Assembly (NCBI GenBank): GCA_023663945.1 | Contig: JAMPGL010000036.1 | Location: forward strand, 1-41,736 | From: Lachnospiraceae bacterium | GTDB lineage: Bacteria; Bacillota; Clostridia; Lachnospirales; Lachnospiraceae | Direction of reading: 5' to 3' | DNA length: 41,736 bases | Shown: positions 32,538 through 39,342 of the stretch, piece by piece | Numbering within the stretch: the stretch's first letter is position 1 | Layout: every line of letters starts with the position of its first letter | The notes under the pieces: model-generated | Seen by the model: the letters and a program-made list of their open reading frames with translations, nothing else | Told to the model about the DNA's origin: nothing | Database searches by the model: none | Made by a program: the position numbers and the translations under genes

Positions 32538-32834
32538 TTATCTCTGTGCTTCATAAACAACAACCTCATCTTTTTTAATCCGGTCAAGAAACCCTGCATC
32601 ACTTGATGTATCCGTGATTACATCTACCGCTCCGCCAAATGCCTTTTCAAGTTCATCAATAAAAGCTGCCAGCTGAAATAATGATTGTATCTTTCCTTTT
32701 GATATTATAAAATCATAATCACTTGTTTCGTTTGCCGTGTTTCTTGCTCTGGAGCCAAACAGCGCCACTCTGTCCGCACCATATTTTTGCGCGATAGGAG
32801 TAACTATATTTGATATATTTGATATATTTTCCAC
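32538..32834 (-). CDS. MNT-type minimal nucleotidyltransferase (antitoxin of HEPN-MNT systems)
   Basis: 98-residue nucleotidyltransferase. The active-site signature is ALFGSRARNTANETSDYDFI (about residues 24-43), with GSRAR and the two catalytic Asp (SDYD), and a third acidic residue in VDVITD (about 70-75). MNT proteins AMPylate and silence HEPN RNase toxins. GTG 32834 has a GGGAGG ribosome binding site eight bases ahead. The toxin that should follow is only a stub (32430-32537), so this is an orphaned antitoxin. It may persist through a regulatory role or by chance. Confidence 0.88.
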   Translation of the reverse strand: MENISNISNIVTPIAQKYGADRVALFGSRARNTANETSDYDFIISKGKIQSLFQLAAFIDELEKAFGGAVDVITDTSSDAGFLDRIKKDEVVVYEAQR

Positions 32835-33069: not shown

Positions 33070-34161
33070 ATGCAAAGGATATTAGTAGTGGATGATGCGG
33101 AATTAAACCGTGAATTACTGCGTAATATACTGAAAGATGAGTACATAATCGAGATGGCGGAAGACGGGGAACAGGCGCTGATTAAATTTCAAGAGTATCA
33201 GGAGGAGATAGGAGCCATCCTGCTGGATTTGCAAATGCCCAATAAGAACGGCTTTGCGGTGATTGCGGAGATGAAAGCGGCGGGCTGGATGCAGAAGGTT
33301 CCAATCCTTATCATAAGCGGTGAGAACTCCGTAGAAATCGAAAATAAATGCCTTGAACTGGGAGCGGCGGATTTTATTCATAAGCCTTTTGAAGATTCCA
33401 TTGTCAGGAACCGGATTAGAAATACCATCGACCTGTTTGCAGGCAAAAACCGCCTTGAACAGAAGATTGAGGAACAAAGGGAAGCACTGAAAAAGCGGGA
33501 CCGCATCATACAGATACAGGCGGAAAAGCTGCAGGAGGCGGAGCCCTTTAACCGGCTGATGATGGAATACAGCTCAGCCATTATGGAAGTGGAGACAAGG
33601 CTGAGGGTGCTGAATGGAGAGTTTTCGCTGGAATACAATCGGAATCCTTTTGAGTCCATCAAAAGCAGGCTGAAATCGCCGGCAAGCATCTACGAAAAGC
33701 TGGCGCGCAAGGGTTATCCGGTCACGGTGGAGAGCATCAAAGAGCATTTAAAGGATGTTGCGGGACTGCGTGTAATCTGTTCTTTCCCGGATGACATTTA
33801 CCGGCTGGCGGAACTGCTGATTAAGCAGGACAATATTACCCTTCTTGGGAAAAAGGACTATATTAAAAGTCCCAAAGCCAATGGCTATAGGAGCCTTCAT
33901 TTGATTTTAAACGTGCCAATCTTTTTATCCAATGAAAAGAAATATATGAAGGTGGAAGTGCAGTTCCGGACTATCGCAATGGATTTTTGGGCAAGCTTAG
34001 AGCACAAGCTGAAATATAAGAAGGATATTGACAATACCGAGGAGATAGTGGGACAGTTGAAGCTTTGCGCCGATTCTATCGGGGCGCTGGATTACCAGAT
34101 GCAGGAGATACGGGACAAGATTGACAGCTCCAAGGAAGATAAGCTGTCCAATGACAGTTAG
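33070..34161 (+). CDS. Response regulator fused to a small alarmone ((p)ppGpp) synthetase
   Basis: 363 residues. The receiver domain (1-120) has Asp8/Asp9, phospho-acceptor Asp53 (LLDLQMPN), Ser83 (IISGEN) and Lys105 (IHKPFED). A charged coiled coil follows (about 125-160). The C-terminal part (about 165-345) is a RelA/SpoT synthetase domain of the RelQ/YjbM kind: SIKSRLKSPASIYEKLARKG (Arg200), KDVAGLRV (Asp229, Arg234), KKDYIKSPKANGYRSLH (Lys262, Tyr273, Arg274), and VEVQFRTIAMDFWASLEHKL (Glu296, Arg300). The residues needed for Mg and for pyrophosphate transfer look present, and no hydrolase domain exists. It should make alarmone from ATP and GTP/GDP under control of phosphorylation. No kinase adjoins it. 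It is 12 bases before holA. Confidence 0.88.
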   Translation: MQRILVVDDAELNRELLRNILKDEYIIEMAEDGEQALIKFQEYQEEIGAILLDLQMPNKNGFAVIAEMKAAGWMQKVPILIISGENSVEIENKCLELGAADFIHKPFEDSIVRNRIRNTIDLFAGKNRLEQKIEEQREALKKRDRIIQIQAEKLQEAEPFNRLMMEYSSAIMEVETRLRVLNGEFSLEYNRNPFESIKSRLKSPASIYEKLARKGYPVTVESIKEHLKDVAGLRVICSFPDDIYRLAELLIKQDNITLLGKKDYIKSPKANGYRSLHLILNVPIFLSNEKKYMKVEVQFRTIAMDFWASLEHKLKYKKDIDNTEEIVGQLKLCADSIGALDYQMQEIRDKIDSSKEDKLSNDS

Positions 34162-35186: not shown

Positions 35187-35633
35187 ATGAGCATGATTGA
35201 TGAAGTGAGAAGCCAGATGATGGAGGCTATGAAGAGCAAGGATAAGGCAAGGAAGGATGCCCTTTCCATGCTGCTTTCCGCGTTAAAGAATAAGGCGATT
35301 GACAAGCGGGAGGATTTGACGGAAGCGGAAGAGTTTGAAGTGGTCAAAAAGGAAATGAAGCAGACTAAGGAGACTATGGAGCTTGCCCCTGACGACAGGG
35401 AAGATATCAAAGAGGCGTGCCGTGTGCGCCTTAGCGTGTATCAGGAATTTGCTCCGGAGGAGATGAGCGAGGAGGCAATCCGCGCGGCAGTGGCGGAGAC
35501 GCTTGAAAGTCTTGGGATTACGGAACCCTCCGGCAAAGATAAAGGAAAGGTCATGAAGGAACTGATGCCGAAGGTAAAAGGAAGAGCGGACGGCGGACTG
35601 GTAAACAAAATCGTTGGAGAGATGCTGAGTTAG
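35187..35633 (+). CDS. GatB/YqeY-domain protein
   Basis: 148-residue YqeY-like protein: helix-rich domain related to the tRNA-binding tail of GatB. Motifs DEVRSQMMEAMKSKDKARKD (about 5-24), KREDLTEAEEFEVVKKEMKQ (about 43-62), RLSVYQEFAPEEMSEE (about 81-96) and MKELMPKVKGRADGGLVNKI (about 122-141) are typical. It often appears near rpsU or primase in other bacteria; the role is unclear, possibly linked to tRNA amidation. ATG 35187 follows AGGAAGG. The next gene starts one base after its stop. Confidence 0.9.
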   Translation: MSMIDEVRSQMMEAMKSKDKARKDALSMLLSALKNKAIDKREDLTEAEEFEVVKKEMKQTKETMELAPDDREDIKEACRVRLSVYQEFAPEEMSEEAIRAAVAETLESLGITEPSGKDKGKVMKELMPKVKGRADGGLVNKIVGEMLS

Positions 35634-35634
35634 G

Positions 35635-36120
35635 ATGAAAAGTGCACTGACTACCCTGTGCTACATCGAAAAAGACGGAAAATACCTGATGCTGCACAGG
35701 GTTTCTAAGAAAAATGATGTAAATAAAGACAAATGGATTGGCGTGGGCGGACATTTTGAACCGGGAGAGAGCCCGGAAGAATGCCTGCTCCGTGAGGTGA
35801 AGGAGGAGACGGGACTGGTGCTGACAAGCTGGAGGTTCCGCGGAATCGTGACCTTCTGTTACAAGGATGACCCGGCGGAGTATATGTGCCTTTATACCGC
35901 GGACGGATACCAGGGAACCCTTACGAGCTGTGCGGAAGGCGTTCTGGAATGGGTGGAAAAGGAACGTGTGAGGGAGCTGAATCTGTGGAAGGGCGACCTT
36001 TTATTCTTTGATCTGATAGAAAAAGATGTTCCATTCTTTTCCATGAAGCTCTGCTACCGCGGGGACGGTGTGCTGTATCGTGCCGTCCTTGACGGAAAAG
36101 AGCTGGAAATCCCGGATTAA
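35635..36120 (+). CDS. Nudix hydrolase (8-oxo-dGTP diphosphatase-like)
   Basis: 161-residue Nudix enzyme with a complete Nudix box, GGHFEPGESPEECLLREVKE followed by ETGL (about residues 38-61, matching G-x5-E-x7-REU-x-EE-x-G-U). It hydrolyses a nucleoside diphosphate linked to X; MutT-like sanitation of oxidised nucleotides is the usual guess for this length. Translation is likely coupled to the YqeY-like gene (one-base gap). Directly after its stop comes the response-regulator scar at 36136-36192, so the end of its original transcription unit is rearranged. Confidence 0.92.
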   Translation: MKSALTTLCYIEKDGKYLMLHRVSKKNDVNKDKWIGVGGHFEPGESPEECLLREVKEETGLVLTSWRFRGIVTFCYKDDPAEYMCLYTADGYQGTLTSCAEGVLEWVEKERVRELNLWKGDLLFFDLIEKDVPFFSMKLCYRGDGVLYRAVLDGKELEIPD

Positions 36121-36135
36121 ATCCTGCGTGACTTC

Positions 36136-36192
36136 GAGCTTGAAGGGGCACCCATCAAGGCGGTTTACAGGATTGGTTATGTTTGGGAAGTT
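36136..36192 (+). pseudogene. 3' scar of an OmpR-type response regulator gene
   Basis: In one frame this stretch reads ELEGAPIKAVYRIGYVWEV, nearly the end of the regulator at 39486 (KLEGAPIKTVYGIGYVWGL). Over about 52 bases the two DNA segments differ at only about seven positions by eye. No other part of a regulator is present. It is therefore a fragment of a related gene left by deletion or insertion. The minus-strand AbiF-like gene ends inside it: its last four residues and its stop codon (36177-36192) lie on the opposite strand of the scar. Confidence 0.75.
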
Positions 36193-37055
36193 AATATATC
36201 CATCCAATCAATTGGAAAGCCCATGGTAGATTTGTCAACATGAGGATATTTTTCAAAAAGCAGCTGGATCGTATCGACAAATTCAATCCAATGCCTGTCC
36301 GTTGGAAGAATGTATTTTAAGCAGATTAGAGTGCTGAACACACGAATATTTGTAATACCAAGATTTCTGTCTTTTGGATATAATTTTGGTGTTTTTGTGA
36401 GCTTGGCATTGTATAAACGCCCATAATGGGCGCAGAGATTGCGGACATATGCGATGCTTTCAATCCAGCTCTCAAAGTATATGTAACTAATACCATAAGT
36501 ATGAGAAACTATTTTTTTATCGGTGCTTTTCATATTTTTAAAAAATTTTGACAAAGTGCCAAAGCTGAAGACTTCAACTAAAGCGTAAAAAGGAATATCA
36601 CCATTTTCATAGTTGCTTTGAAAATTTTTAATAAAAGGCGCTCTTTTATTACGATTGATTTCCTTTTGGATTTCATTGAGAAATGCAAAGTGAAAATTCT
36701 CATTGGAAAAATTTGCACTGTCTTTATAACCTAAAATTCCATAAGCTGATGAAAAATGGTTGGATATACGACATCGTAAATTGATTTCGACTTTTTCAAT
36801 CTGAGCGAACAATAATTGACGGAAATTTGCGTTAAATAAGTATAATTCAACAAGCTGTTCAAAAGTGATACCATCATAATAGAAACCATTCCTTGGTTTG
36901 AGACCAAGGCTATAAGCTTTAATAAATCTAAAATAAGAAACATCATTTAAAAAATGTGCGGCATAAGCTTCGTCTTTTATTATCAGATTAAGGGATTTTA
37001 AATTTTCTATTTGTTCTTCAACTGATAAAGCTTTTTGGCTCTTCTTTTTCTCCAT
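36177..37055 (-). CDS. Abi_2-family (AbiD/AbiF-like) HEPN ribonuclease, abortive-infection type
   Basis: 292-residue Abi_2 protein. The N-terminal motif SYFRFIKAYSLGLKPRNGFY (about 40-59), middle YLFNANFRQLLFAQIEKVEI NLR, and the C-terminal HEPN signature RNLCAHYGRLYN (residues 205-216, Arg205-x4-His210) are diagnostic. An earlier basic cluster LRCRISNHF (residues 93-101) is the usual second conserved part. HEPN proteins of this group cleave RNA and stop phage growth by halting the host. It is AT-richer than its neighbours, stands alone on the minus strand, and ends inside a foreign scar, so it is probably recently acquired. A structured leader RNA precedes it (37066-37127). Confidence 0.88.
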   Translation of the reverse strand: MEKKKSQKALSVEEQIENLKSLNLIIKDEAYAAHFLNDVSYFRFIKAYSLGLKPRNGFYYDGITFEQLVELYLFNANFRQLLFAQIEKVEINLRCRISNHFSSAYGILGYKDSANFSNENFHFAFLNEIQKEINRNKRAPFIKNFQSNYENGDIPFYALVEVFSFGTLSKFFKNMKSTDKKIVSHTYGISYIYFESWIESIAYVRNLCAHYGRLYNAKLTKTPKLYPKDRNLGITNIRVFSTLICLKYILPTDRHWIEFVDTIQLLFEKYPHVDKSTMGFPIDWMDILTSQT

Positions 37056-37065
37056 ATATTCCTCA

Positions 37066-37156
37066 CAAAATTAAACGACCCGACGTGGTACGCATCGTTG
37101 AGAGGCGTGTCGGGTTCTGTTGCTAATATTATATGTGAAAAAAAGGAGAAATGCAA
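37066..37156 (-). ncRNA. Promoter and structured leader RNA upstream of the AbiF-like gene
   Basis: On the minus strand, TTGCAT (37156-37151), 17 bases and TATAAT (37133-37128) form a good promoter. The transcript would begin near 37121. It folds into a stem of CCCGAC (37114-37109) with GTCGGG (37084-37079), extended inward by ACGC (37108-37105) with GCGT (37093-37090) around the loop CTCTCAACGAT. The loop side carries CCTC, which could pair with the GAGG of the abiF ribosome binding site (37064-37061) as a pseudoknot. A conserved structured RNA, called the abiF motif, is known upstream of Abi_2 genes; this is a candidate member. Matching has not been tested with a covariance model. Confidence 0.6.
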
Positions 37157-37210
37157 TAAAAATTTCTCTATCTATGCTGAAATTGTATTTTGCAATAACT
37201 CAAGTAAAAA

Positions 37211-37266
37211 ATGATGCAAAAATGATGCAATTATGATGCAGAAATGATGCATAGCAGGGTTATAAT
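37211..37266 (+). promoter_or_regulatory. Four 11-bp direct repeats before the promoter of the secreted-protein gene
   Basis: ATGATGCA occurs at 37211, 37222, 37233 and 37244, each exactly 11 bases apart (unit roughly AAAATGATGCA). A perfect -10 TATAAT lies at 37261-37266, so the last repeats cover the -35 region and no TTGACA is visible. One repeat per helical turn is the pattern of OmpR-type regulator binding sites. The two-component genes at 39486 and 40151 are downstream candidates. Confidence 0.65.
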
Positions 37267-37302
37267 GAGCCTGTTAAGGGAAGAACAGGAGGTAGTTTGA
37301 AA

Positions 37303-39342
37303 ATGAAAAAAGTGATGACAATTTTGGCTGCCTGCTTTATGCTGATGAACAATTTGATAGAGGGTGAATGCGACAGGCAGGAAAATTACAGCGAGAATGC
37401 TGAAAAAATTGAATTTCTGCCATTTCAGTGTTCATACAGTGAGCAGGAGGAGAATGGAATGGCGATTGTTTCCCTTGGAAGTCTGGACATCTACATTCCT
37501 GATGGGTGGCAAATGGAGACCAGACAGGAGGAAGTGATGACGCAGCATGTCCTTGTGGATGTCCATACCCAGCATGAGGGATGCTATGAGCATGAAATTG
37601 TTATCACGCCATATACAATTTCACATATGCCGGAAAATACTCTGCAGCTGGCAGGGGCAATGAAAGAGTATTTTCCTGTCCCGGTTCTGTATGGTCTTAA
37701 AGGAACGGGAAAAACGGAGGAAATCGAGGGATGCTGGATGTACGGAGAAAATCATGAGACAGAAGAGCAGGAGTATTTTCTCTTTTTGCGGGAAAATTCT
37801 TCAAGGAAAAGCCCTCGGGGAGAGGGCAATGAGATGGAATTATTTCACGTCAGGGAAAGAGGCACTTATGATTATGAGAATCTTGTTAGAAATTTTCAAG
37901 ATTTTATGCGGTATATATATACAACTGACAATAGCGCAGGAGAGGAATATTATTATTGGTTTAACAGACAGTCGGCAGCTCCTCTGTTTGTTGTGATGCA
38001 ATCTTTGGGCAGGGACAGGGAAGGTGAGGTTAAAGTGTATCAGCAGGGGAATTATGATACACCAATTGCCTGCGTGCAGGTACAAAACCTGACTCCGGGC
38101 TGGATAGAAATTATGGACATTAATGGGGATGGAAATGAGGATTTTATACGTGATTACCAATTGGCAGATCCTCCGTATTCCGCCGCGTATGCGATAGAGG
38201 AGGATTTTGATGGATATTTATGGGATGAGGAGCAGAATACATTTATTTATACTCCCGGGAAGGTGATGCTGGAGGAATATAGTTACCTGTGGGATGAGAG
38301 CATTAATTTGGATTCCCCAAAGGAGGAGGAATTGATTCCGGAAGGACTTATTGAATACCTGAAAGCACCCCTTTTGGAAAGCAAGGAGAAAATACAGGAT
38401 GTGATGCTTCCGATGGAATCAGACTATGAGCTGACTTTGGAGGAAGTACAAGAGCTTGCGGGGGATAATGAGGACATAGCAAATGAGATACGGGAAATTG
38501 AGATATATAGCGGTTCTGGAACATGGCTCTGGGTGGATGTCGACAACGATGGGATAAAGGACATTTATCTCAGCGAATATTTGGGTGGGAGTTTAGGGAG
38601 CATTTATTATTATCTTTTTGCGGGCAGAGAGGATGGAAGCTATGAACTGACGGATAAAATGGAAGAGCTTAGGCAGGAGTTTAGTTTTATCAAATGGAAA
38701 GGCAAAAATTATTTGGCGAAGATCACATGGGGGTTAGCCAAGAAGGTTAATAACGGAATTTCACTGGAATGTTATGAAGACGGCGCTTATCAGGGCGGAG
38801 TCTGGCTCGCTATTACCCCAAAAGAAGGGGGAAGAGAAATTGGGACTTCTTATTTGAAGGAGGAAAAATATCGCAGTGTGGAAGAAAATTTATTGGAATT
38901 TGCGAAGCAATACCAGATAGGGGAAGAAATGGGACCGGGAACGGCGGAGGCAGAGGATGCGGATGTTGAATATAACCGAAGCAGCGATCTTGATAATGAC
39001 GGGAAAGAGGAAAGATATACTTTAAGGATTTGGAAATCTACCACTTATCATTCGGTGGATGGGATTGTTTTCAATGTGGAAGACGAGGAGATTGATGCCC
39101 GGATTAAGGAAATATCCGATAGAGAAGAGATACCGGGACTCTTGTTAAATATGTGGGTCGATAAAACGGAATGTGGAAATATGATTTTCTTCTTATATGA
39201 AGAGGGGCTGTATGATTTTCATATCTGCGGCTGGCTGTTGTCAGAGGATACGGAGGAAAAAGTGGTACAAGTAGACTGCCTGAGTCAGGTGGAGGTAACA
39301 AAAAATATTATAGATGTAAATCTAGGGTGCATAAGGCATTAA
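37303..39342 (+). CDS. Secreted protein with three calcium-binding-like D-x-D-x-D-G motifs
   Basis: About 679 residues. The N-terminal signal-like stretch MKKVMTILAACFMLMNNLIEG (split: residues 1-21) lacks a clean lipobox, so secretion or a membrane anchor is uncertain. Three repeats match EF-hand/FG-GAP calcium loops: DINGDGNEDFI, DVDNDGIKDIY and DLDNDGKEERY (about residues 270, 408 and 562). The family is not recognised. ATG 37303 is ten bases after AGGAGG and preferred over TTG 37297. Its promoter has 11-bp repeats, and a response regulator and kinase follow it, so it could be the sensed or regulated envelope component. Acidic composition is high. Confidence 0.75.
   Translation: MKKVMTILAACFMLMNNLIEGECDRQENYSENAEKIEFLPFQCSYSEQEENGMAIVSLGSLDIYIPDGWQMETRQEEVMTQHVLVDVHTQHEGCYEHEIVITPYTISHMPENTLQLAGAMKEYFPVPVLYGLKGTGKTEEIEGCWMYGENHETEEQEYFLFLRENSSRKSPRGEGNEMELFHVRERGTYDYENLVRNFQDFMRYIYTTDNSAGEEYYYWFNRQSAAPLFVVMQSLGRDREGEVKVYQQGNYDTPIACVQVQNLTPGWIEIMDINGDGNEDFIRDYQLADPPYSAAYAIEEDFDGYLWDEEQNTFIYTPGKVMLEEYSYLWDESINLDSPKEEELIPEGLIEYLKAPLLESKEKIQDVMLPMESDYELTLEEVQELAGDNEDIANEIREIEIYSGSGTWLWVDVDNDGIKDIYLSEYLGGSLGSIYYYLFAGREDGSYELTDKMEELRQEFSFIKWKGKNYLAKITWGLAKKVNNGISLECYEDGAYQGGVWLAITPKEGGREIGTSYLKEEKYRSVEENLLEFAKQYQIGEEMGPGTAEAEDADVEYNRSSDLDNDGKEERYTLRIWKSTTYHSVDGIVFNVEDEEIDARIKEISDREEIPGLLLNMWVDKTECGNMIFFLYEEGLYDFHICGWLLSEDTEEKVVQVDCLSQVEVTKNIIDVNLGCIRH

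Follow-up and report, generated by a model that had tools for sequence, protein, structure and literature searches.

Introduction

The PbAbiF-AbiFr pair, an AbiF protein and its noncoding RNA (PDB 8vz6), was reportedly described by Zilberzwige-Tal et al. (Cell 2025). Single-stranded bulge nucleotides of the PbAbiF RNA are stated, in the accessible text of PMC12737573, to inhibit the RNase, with C32 and U38 of PbAbiFr named, and the same text proposes that Cas13 is a descendant of AbiF. For the RCd22-AbiFCd pair of Clostridioides difficile phi027, the accessible part of PMC12373285 reports that AbiFCd is toxic, that toxicity is lost on substitution of R202/H207, that RCd22 neutralises AbiFCd in cis as well as in trans and binds it directly, and that most transcription terminates before the toxin gene. 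The type III systems ToxIN, AbiQ, TenpNI and CptNI, as treated in that part of PMC12373285, resemble the locus described below in setting an RNA antitoxin, a probable one in the present case, against an RNase encoded just downstream, but have another toxin structure, a repeat-array antitoxin and a terminator before the toxin gene.

The present locus lies in a Lachnospiraceae bacterium (assembly GCA_023663945.1, contig JAMPGL010000036.1) within a stretch of 41,736 nucleotides, referred to as the window. The kind of system is already known from AbiF-AbiFr and RCd22-AbiFCd, and the window holds a well-preserved, compact example of it, with the following parts.

37151..37156, minus strand: -35-like TTGCAT, 3 of 6 consensus
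37128..37133, minus strand: -10 TATAAT, 17 nt from the -35-like TTGCAT
37067..37121, minus strand: leader RNA of 55 nt, made of the 5' tail AACAGA, a hairpin and a U-rich tail, directly upstream of the toxin
37078..37114, minus strand: match to the Rfam abiF RNA RF03085, 48 bits (gathering 37), E 5.6e-6
37095..37101, minus strand: apical helix of U-A and C-G, 37101-37100 with 37096-37095, outside the Rfam structure
37085..37090, minus strand: conserved 3' internal loop UACCAC, by analogy a candidate active-site-blocking element
37067..37077, minus strand: U-rich tail CGUUUAAUUUU directly 3' of the stem, candidate weak intrinsic terminator
37061..37066, minus strand: Shine-Dalgarno region GUGAGG, 5 nt ahead of the ATG, recognised from sequence
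36177..37055, minus strand: abiF/abiD toxin gene, 292 aa, by family an Abi_2 HEPN RNase, R205-x4-H210
36137..36192, plus strand: C-terminal remnant of a response regulator, bordering the insertion and overlapping the last toxin codons, translation LEGAPIKAVYRIGYVWEV

With PbAbiF-AbiFr the window unit shares the fold (TM 0.83), the R-x4-H motif and an ncRNA partner, at a protein identity of only 27%, the comparison being one of proteins. RCd22-AbiFCd, as far as the accessible text of PMC12373285 describes it, is alike in its Abi_2 toxin with the RNxCAH motif and in its abiF-motif RNA upstream under one promoter, co-transcription in the window being a prediction from sequence. It has two abiF motifs, a separate terminator and 168 nt between start site and ATG, against a single motif, no separate terminator and about 66 nt from the predicted start in the window; it also resides in a prophage, whereas the window unit has a nudix gene on one side and a lipoprotein-like gene on the other. 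Unlike the type III arrays described in the same text, the putative antitoxin of the window is a single motif with no room for a second terminator, and no RNA repeat array is present in the window. From the conserved offset of the -10, the toxin and the RNA immediately in front of it are predicted to share one promoter, as in type III systems. Cas13 (type VI CRISPR) likewise is a HEPN R-x4-H RNase, but the window protein is not a Cas13, which would carry two HEPN domains: it has a single Abi_2/HEPN domain per chain of 292 aa and no spacer, and no CRISPR-like repeat array was found beside the gene within the stretch examined, 35600-37700.

Results

Membership of the toxin in the AbiF family

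An Abi_2 protein with an R205-x4-H210 motif had been proposed from the sequence in a first-pass annotation, and the profile searches bear this out. The 292-aa protein matches PF07751 (Abi_2) with E 3.5e-50 and 171 bits (cut-off 25.6), residues 34-216 covering the profile in full (1-184), and PADLOC AbiD with E 2.1e-97. The catalytic motif is RNLCAH at residues 205-210, of which R205, N206 and H210 are unchanged throughout 32 aligned homologues. An AlphaFold2 model with 32 homologues as input reached a mean pLDDT of 94.6, and Foldseek returned 8vz6_A as the sole match to it at E <= 0.001 (E 6.2e-14, TM 0.83), the two folds being alike over the whole length; phmmer found the same chain with E 3e-33 and with R-x4-H aligned between both. 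PbAbiF bound to its ncRNA is the only close solved relative of the window toxin. By domain, motif and PbAbiF-like fold, the toxin is a member of the AbiF/AbiD (Abi_2) family, and it is the only match to the family profile in its genome at E <= 0.001. Relatives are present in phage records (77) and plasmid records (417), every one with less than 60% identity, and closer ones came from genome contigs in the scan of species genomes. Eight stretches of viral contigs fitted the search pattern and none encodes a toxin relative, by a method that detects close relatives only.

The leader is an abiF RNA with a covarying structure

The structured leader had been annotated as a hairpin between promoter and start codon for which a scan with the Rfam abiF covariance model would be informative. 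That scan gave 48 bits against a cut-off of 37 at 37078-37114 (minus strand), with all 37 model positions covered and an E-value that refers to the whole window; no other Rfam match in the window passed its gathering score, and no second abiF match was found in the genome at E <= 0.001. The hairpin itself is present, the 55-nt RNA folding with -16.4 kcal/mol (z -3.25) and none of 200 shuffles folding equally well, while the fold energy of a 101-nt stretch around the hairpin is ordinary (z -0.99, 37/200 shuffles as good).

Two alignments were built from the leaders of intact-toxin loci, A2 being gapless with 26 distinct RNAs that have an 11-nt loop and A3 containing all 33 distinct RNAs of these leaders; conserved blocks were seen in both. 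A refined covariance model, R1, was built from the 33 RNAs of A3 and gives the window RNA 82.4 bits, a score that is not independent because this RNA is among the 33 rows behind the model. Scans with RF03085 and R1 agree on a single abiF motif in the window. The RF03085 model is without the 5' tail, the U-tract and the apical pair that are found in the family of the window RNA.

All 12 proposed pairs are formed in all 26 RNAs of A2 (100% of cells), with double changes at 5 pairs, and 98.5% of cells are paired over the 33 RNAs of A3, with double changes at 6 pairs and with pair 7-44 broken in 5 RNAs. The pattern by which leaders were picked was loose but required the outer and inner stems, and the pairing percentages of these stems lean upward because both sat in the rule; the apical pairs and pair 7-44 were no part of it. 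Slid controls had 28-36% of cells paired (A2, A3). The covariation score was matched by 0/500 shuffles on A2 and on A3, so that the covariance support in homologous loci whose absence had been named beforehand as speaking against an RNA function was found. The number of further pair types was not unusual on A2, where 70/500 shuffles reached it, and was reached by 2/500 on A3. Rfam leaves the abiF loop unpaired, as did an RNAalifold run on 26 RNAs; the second apical pair is formed in 33/33 distinct RNAs, as CG in 14, UA in 12, GC in 3, AU in 2 and GU in 2. With the curated cut-off passed and covariation in homologues, the leader is an abiF RNA. In the internal loop, C35 and A36 are invariant and A33 and C34 conserved in at least 90% of the 26 rows of A2.

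Among the matches listed, three loci (L098, L033 and L042) have a much longer apical part, which indicates that the apex of the abiF RNA tolerates insertion. At some loci a second abiF-like RNA follows a few dozen bases 3' of the toxin stop, placing the toxin gene between two RNAs; such a 3' copy is absent from the window.

L033:1494-1548, second 3' RNA copy, R1 35.7 bits
L095:2414-2468, second 3' RNA copy, R1 24.8 bits
L097:2421-2475, second 3' RNA copy, R1 22.1 bits
L099:2421-2474, weak second 3' RNA copy, R1 15.9 bits, E 0.2

Co-occurrence of toxin and RNA

Relatives were taken from 30 loci of one scan of species genomes and from further whole-genome searches. The toxin is intact in 22 of the 30 loci, and the RNA is present in 22/22 of these and in 4/8 of those with a broken or cut toxin; two loci scored as broken, L021 and L027, are situated close to the end of a contig. 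In a second set of 30 toxin loci, from a whole-genome search, R1 finds the RNA in 26. Seen from the RNA, 48 distinct RF03085 matches adjoin an intact toxin in 25 cases, a frameshifted or stopped one in 2, a fragment in 5 (one of which, L056, amounts to 14 residues at E 0.007) and no trace of a toxin in 16; L068, probably a false Rfam match (R1 19.7 bits), was kept in this count. Frameshifted or stopped toxin genes behind an intact RNA were seen at L022, L023, L024, L028, L039 and L066.

Among 299 genomes of the window's family, R1 identified 53 RNAs in 44 genomes and Rfam was positive in 21 (E <= 0.001 each), 7 of the 21 lying above the Rfam cut-off; these two scans, and the further RF03085 scan behind the 48 matches, were run under tighter Infernal filters and could overlook weak RNAs. 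A toxin match follows 21 of the 53 RNAs (2 of these toxins are stopped and 1 match is partial), precedes 1 and is lacking from 31. Into this pairing 34 toxin matches were entered, including all with at least 200 bits, and the remaining ones, checked by eye, were beside none of the 53 RNAs. The RNA accompanies 18/19 toxins with at least 246 bits and 0/6 of those at 204-215 bits, both cut-offs having been set after the list was seen; one of the six, L177, scores 17.9 bits (E 0.014) once filters are switched off. No RNA was found in the leaders of L101, L105, L174-L176 and L200 even with filters off. An abiF RNA accompanying all Abi_2 proteins is ruled out, more distant Abi_2 proteins being without a clear RNA. 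At 14 toxin loci of the second set that the RF03085 scan had left unflagged, Rfam found 0/14 even at E 0.5, and R1 found a leader RNA at 10; the wider reach of the refined model in the window's family may be a new result.

Thus, among close relatives of the toxin, a toxin without the RNA is rare and the RNA without a toxin is common. This polarity of loss, in which the RNA outlasts the toxin and rarely the reverse, is the pattern expected of an antitoxin. The first-pass proposal of an RNA antitoxin is well supported because family membership and polarity of loss both point to it. We consider it probable (about 0.84) that this is an AbiF-family abortive-infection unit on the chromosome, a type III-like toxin-antitoxin pair in which the RNA binds and silences the RNase.

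Promoter, U-tract and the possibility of attenuation

A promoter TTGCAT-N17-TATAAT had been read on the minus strand and is there (37156-37151, 17 nt, 37133-37128), the -35 fitting the consensus at only 3/6 positions. For this reason it was omitted by a plain promoter scan; it was accepted all the same because the placement of the -10 is conserved among relatives. Leader statistics rest on 42 distinct leaders out of 47 intact-toxin loci, L026 and L055, which failed the pattern, and the duplicates L063-L065 having been left out. The best -10 hexamer occurs at the identical offset from the RNA in 32/42 leaders and at least 5/6 letters are present there in 34/42, while a -35 at a 17-nt spacer has at least 4 positions of TTGACA in 23/42 (mean 3.79 of 6). 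The order in relatives is TATAAT, 6 nt, AACAGA, stem, U-rich tail, Shine-Dalgarno and ATG, with 21-29 nt from stem to ATG in 39/42. The constant position of the -10 implies a transcription start approximately at the RNA's first base, in the window probably near 37121 (minus strand), from where the ATG is about 66 nt away; 23 nt separate it from the end of the hairpin. In the interval from RNA to ATG, the promoter scan shows nothing promoter-like on the minus strand.

Nor does it list a separate terminator between RNA and toxin, a function that the antitoxin hairpin and U-tract may serve. At least 5 T in an 8-nt stretch 0-3 nt past the stem are found in 41/42 leaders against 16% of background stretches, and this U-tract suggests that the RNA also attenuates transcription. 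Termination in the window may be weak, since its U-tract is interrupted (UUUAAUUUU). The RNA could then be mainly a transcription attenuator of the toxin gene, with protein binding secondary; besides the near-universal U-tract, the 17-fold rise in toxin mRNA on deletion of the C. difficile RNA, reported in the accessible text of PMC12373285, would agree with this. A terminator, however, needs no conserved unpaired letters, yet both the internal loop and the loop have them, and direct RNA-protein binding is reported in relatives, which together make a primarily attenuating RNA unlikely.

Origin of the unit

The best match to the region is found in a genome of the same genus (G707, 78% complete), in which the distance from the nudix gene to the region before the lipoprotein-like gene, measured between aligned blocks, is 92 bp, against 1091 bp in the window with the abiF unit. 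This empty site rests on that one genome; in six further regions the alignment was confined to the nudix side, besides a short remnant match in one of them (L120, genome G687), where 36137-36191 finds an 80% DNA match. There the nudix gene is followed by a response-regulator gene with the end DGAPIKTVYGIGYVWEV. Neither an integrase nor a terminal repeat was seen next to the unit. Since a relative has the site without the unit, acquisition would be the simplest reading, loss in G707 being the alternative. Across 37 genomes of this genus, R1 has 6 RNA matches, 2 of them directly before a toxin (in the window and in G703) and 4 without a toxin match.

An acquired, dispensable remnant that is no longer expressed or active would account for the single patchy copy, the weak -35, the gene remnant beside the insertion and the frequent loss of the toxin in relatives. 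The ORF is nevertheless full-length with its catalytic residues in place, and the RNA, the -10 and the ribosome binding site (RBS) are intact; a remnant is accordingly unlikely.

Elsewhere in the window, a tandem 11-bp unit with TGATGCA stands ahead of the lipoprotein-like gene (37207-37252) and is matched at many more places in the genome and genus. A response-regulator receiver domain is fused to a RelA/SpoT synthetase domain at 33070-34161 (plus strand). At 32538-32834 (minus strand) a small nucleotidyltransferase-domain protein is encoded, resembling MntA of HepT-MntA pairs, beside which no HEPN partner was recognised in the ORF list.

Loop and ribosome binding site

It had further been noted that the loop can pair with the ribosome binding site. 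For the window this holds, at -5.9 kcal/mol, a duplex that beats 87% of controls, but it does not extend to the family: own-RBS pairing averages -4.66 kcal/mol over 42 leaders against -4.58 for 55 control sites, which precede other ORFs of those loci and were chosen to hold a Shine-Dalgarno-like tetramer. The complementarity is generic because a pyrimidine-rich loop fits any Shine-Dalgarno sequence. Pairing equal to that with the ribosome sites of unrelated genes leaves it unsupported as the mechanism, and it was rejected.

The window duplex would be the argument for a leader that acts only as a cis switch, its loop pairing with the Shine-Dalgarno to stop translation without any protein binding. 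Across relatives the CUCU of the loop hardly changes while the RBS letters vary, the loop is partly a covarying apical helix, RNAs exist without any toxin alongside, and activity in trans is reported for a relative (accessible text of PMC12373285); a pure cis switch is therefore very unlikely. That the RNA is instead a guide that selects target transcripts for the RNase, a pre-CRISPR activity of the Cas13 type for which the proposed ancestry of Cas13 in AbiF (PMC12737573 and PMC12373285, as far as accessible) and the variable apical loop could be cited, is hardly credible, there being no spacer-like variable tail but flanks (AACAGA and CAUUUAAUUU) that are conserved among relatives, a whole loop of 11 nt in 26/33 RNAs that leaves just 3 apical bases unpaired, and near identity between RNAs of different genomes (mean column identity 89% in A2).

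Solitary abiF RNAs

The 31 of 53 R1 matches without a toxin match in the 299 genomes outnumber those beside a toxin. Examples are L130, L135, L136, L138, L140, L141, L186 and L203, and many have a well-placed -10. Inspection of the flanks of the 31, from 300 nt before the RNA to about 1.4 kb behind it, revealed toxin fragments in 6 and none in 25; among the latter, L130 is not a clean case because a run of unknown bases follows its RNA. Promoters were checked in 40 solitary RNAs, namely 30 of the 31 from the family, 8 RF03085 matches and 2 from the window's genus, with L194 (a cut match) and L068 left out. A -10 with at least 5/6 letters lies within one base of the usual offset in 27/40 solitary and 38/42 toxin-linked RNAs and at 4.5% of background positions; when a -35 of at least 4/6 is added, the counts are 18/40 and 31/42. 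The promoter is thus retained in most solitary RNAs, less well than beside a toxin.

In two genera (L201 in G009, L202 in G086), a solitary RNA together with a hairpin is 88% alike over 252 bp; the hairpin, 3' of the RNA, is terminator-like by eye, and the downstream genes differ. At L159 an abiF-type RNA and ribosome site form the leader of a peptide deformylase-like gene, with the ORF at +13. L196, L198 and L199 look decayed (29-33 bits). Solitary RNAs may be either maintained copies or recent remnants. Two main AbiF papers, the AbiF-Cas13 paper not among them, contain neither the word 'orphan' nor the word 'solitary', and these RNAs may be a new result.

Discussion

The evidence gathered here consists of the gene, the RNA, its covariation, the conserved geometry of promoter, RNA and RBS, family assignment by sequence and fold, and a relative with an empty site; toxicity, neutralisation and complex formation are reported for relatives in the accessible text of PMC12373285. 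Taken as a toxin-antitoxin unit, the locus could operate as follows. A single promoter would drive a transcript that begins approximately with the first base of the 55-nt RNA, and the hairpin RNA would bind a dimeric HEPN RNase and block its R-x4-H site, probably, by analogy with PbAbiFr, via the conserved 3' internal loop UACCAC (37090-37085). Most transcripts would probably end at the U-rich tail, or be cut behind it, giving an excess of RNA, while read-through transcripts would make toxin, and the antitoxin hairpin and U-tract would double as an attenuator. With the end of the hairpin only 23 nt from the ATG, an AbiF dimer bound to it would probably hinder ribosome loading as well and in this way limit translation of the toxin and hence its own synthesis. 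A cis-regulator role by attenuation or occlusion, the other function put forward for the leader at the outset, is plausible. Loss of the RNA, for example during phage shut-off, would free the RNase and lead to growth arrest.

The locus is minimal, with one hairpin and one gene in about 1 kb and no accessory genes seen. Its well-constrained RNA helps to picture an ancestral guide RNA of Cas13, which may have had a 5' end set by the promoter, a stem of two helices, an internal loop under conservation and a variable apical helix. The polarity of loss amounts to a natural-genetics argument for the RNA as antitoxin, and the refined RNA model makes more AbiF-RNA pairs findable.

This improved RNA model and the solitary RNAs are where most of the interest lies. 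We suggest tentatively, and with some doubt, that promoter, abiF RNA and terminator form an independent unit which outlives the toxin and spreads without it, the window locus representing its compact parent form. Solitary RNAs may supply extra antitoxin in trans, may be exapted leaders of other genes such as that for peptide deformylase, or may be anti-addiction antitoxins against incoming AbiF units. Should selection maintain them, they would represent a directly testable form of anti-addiction.
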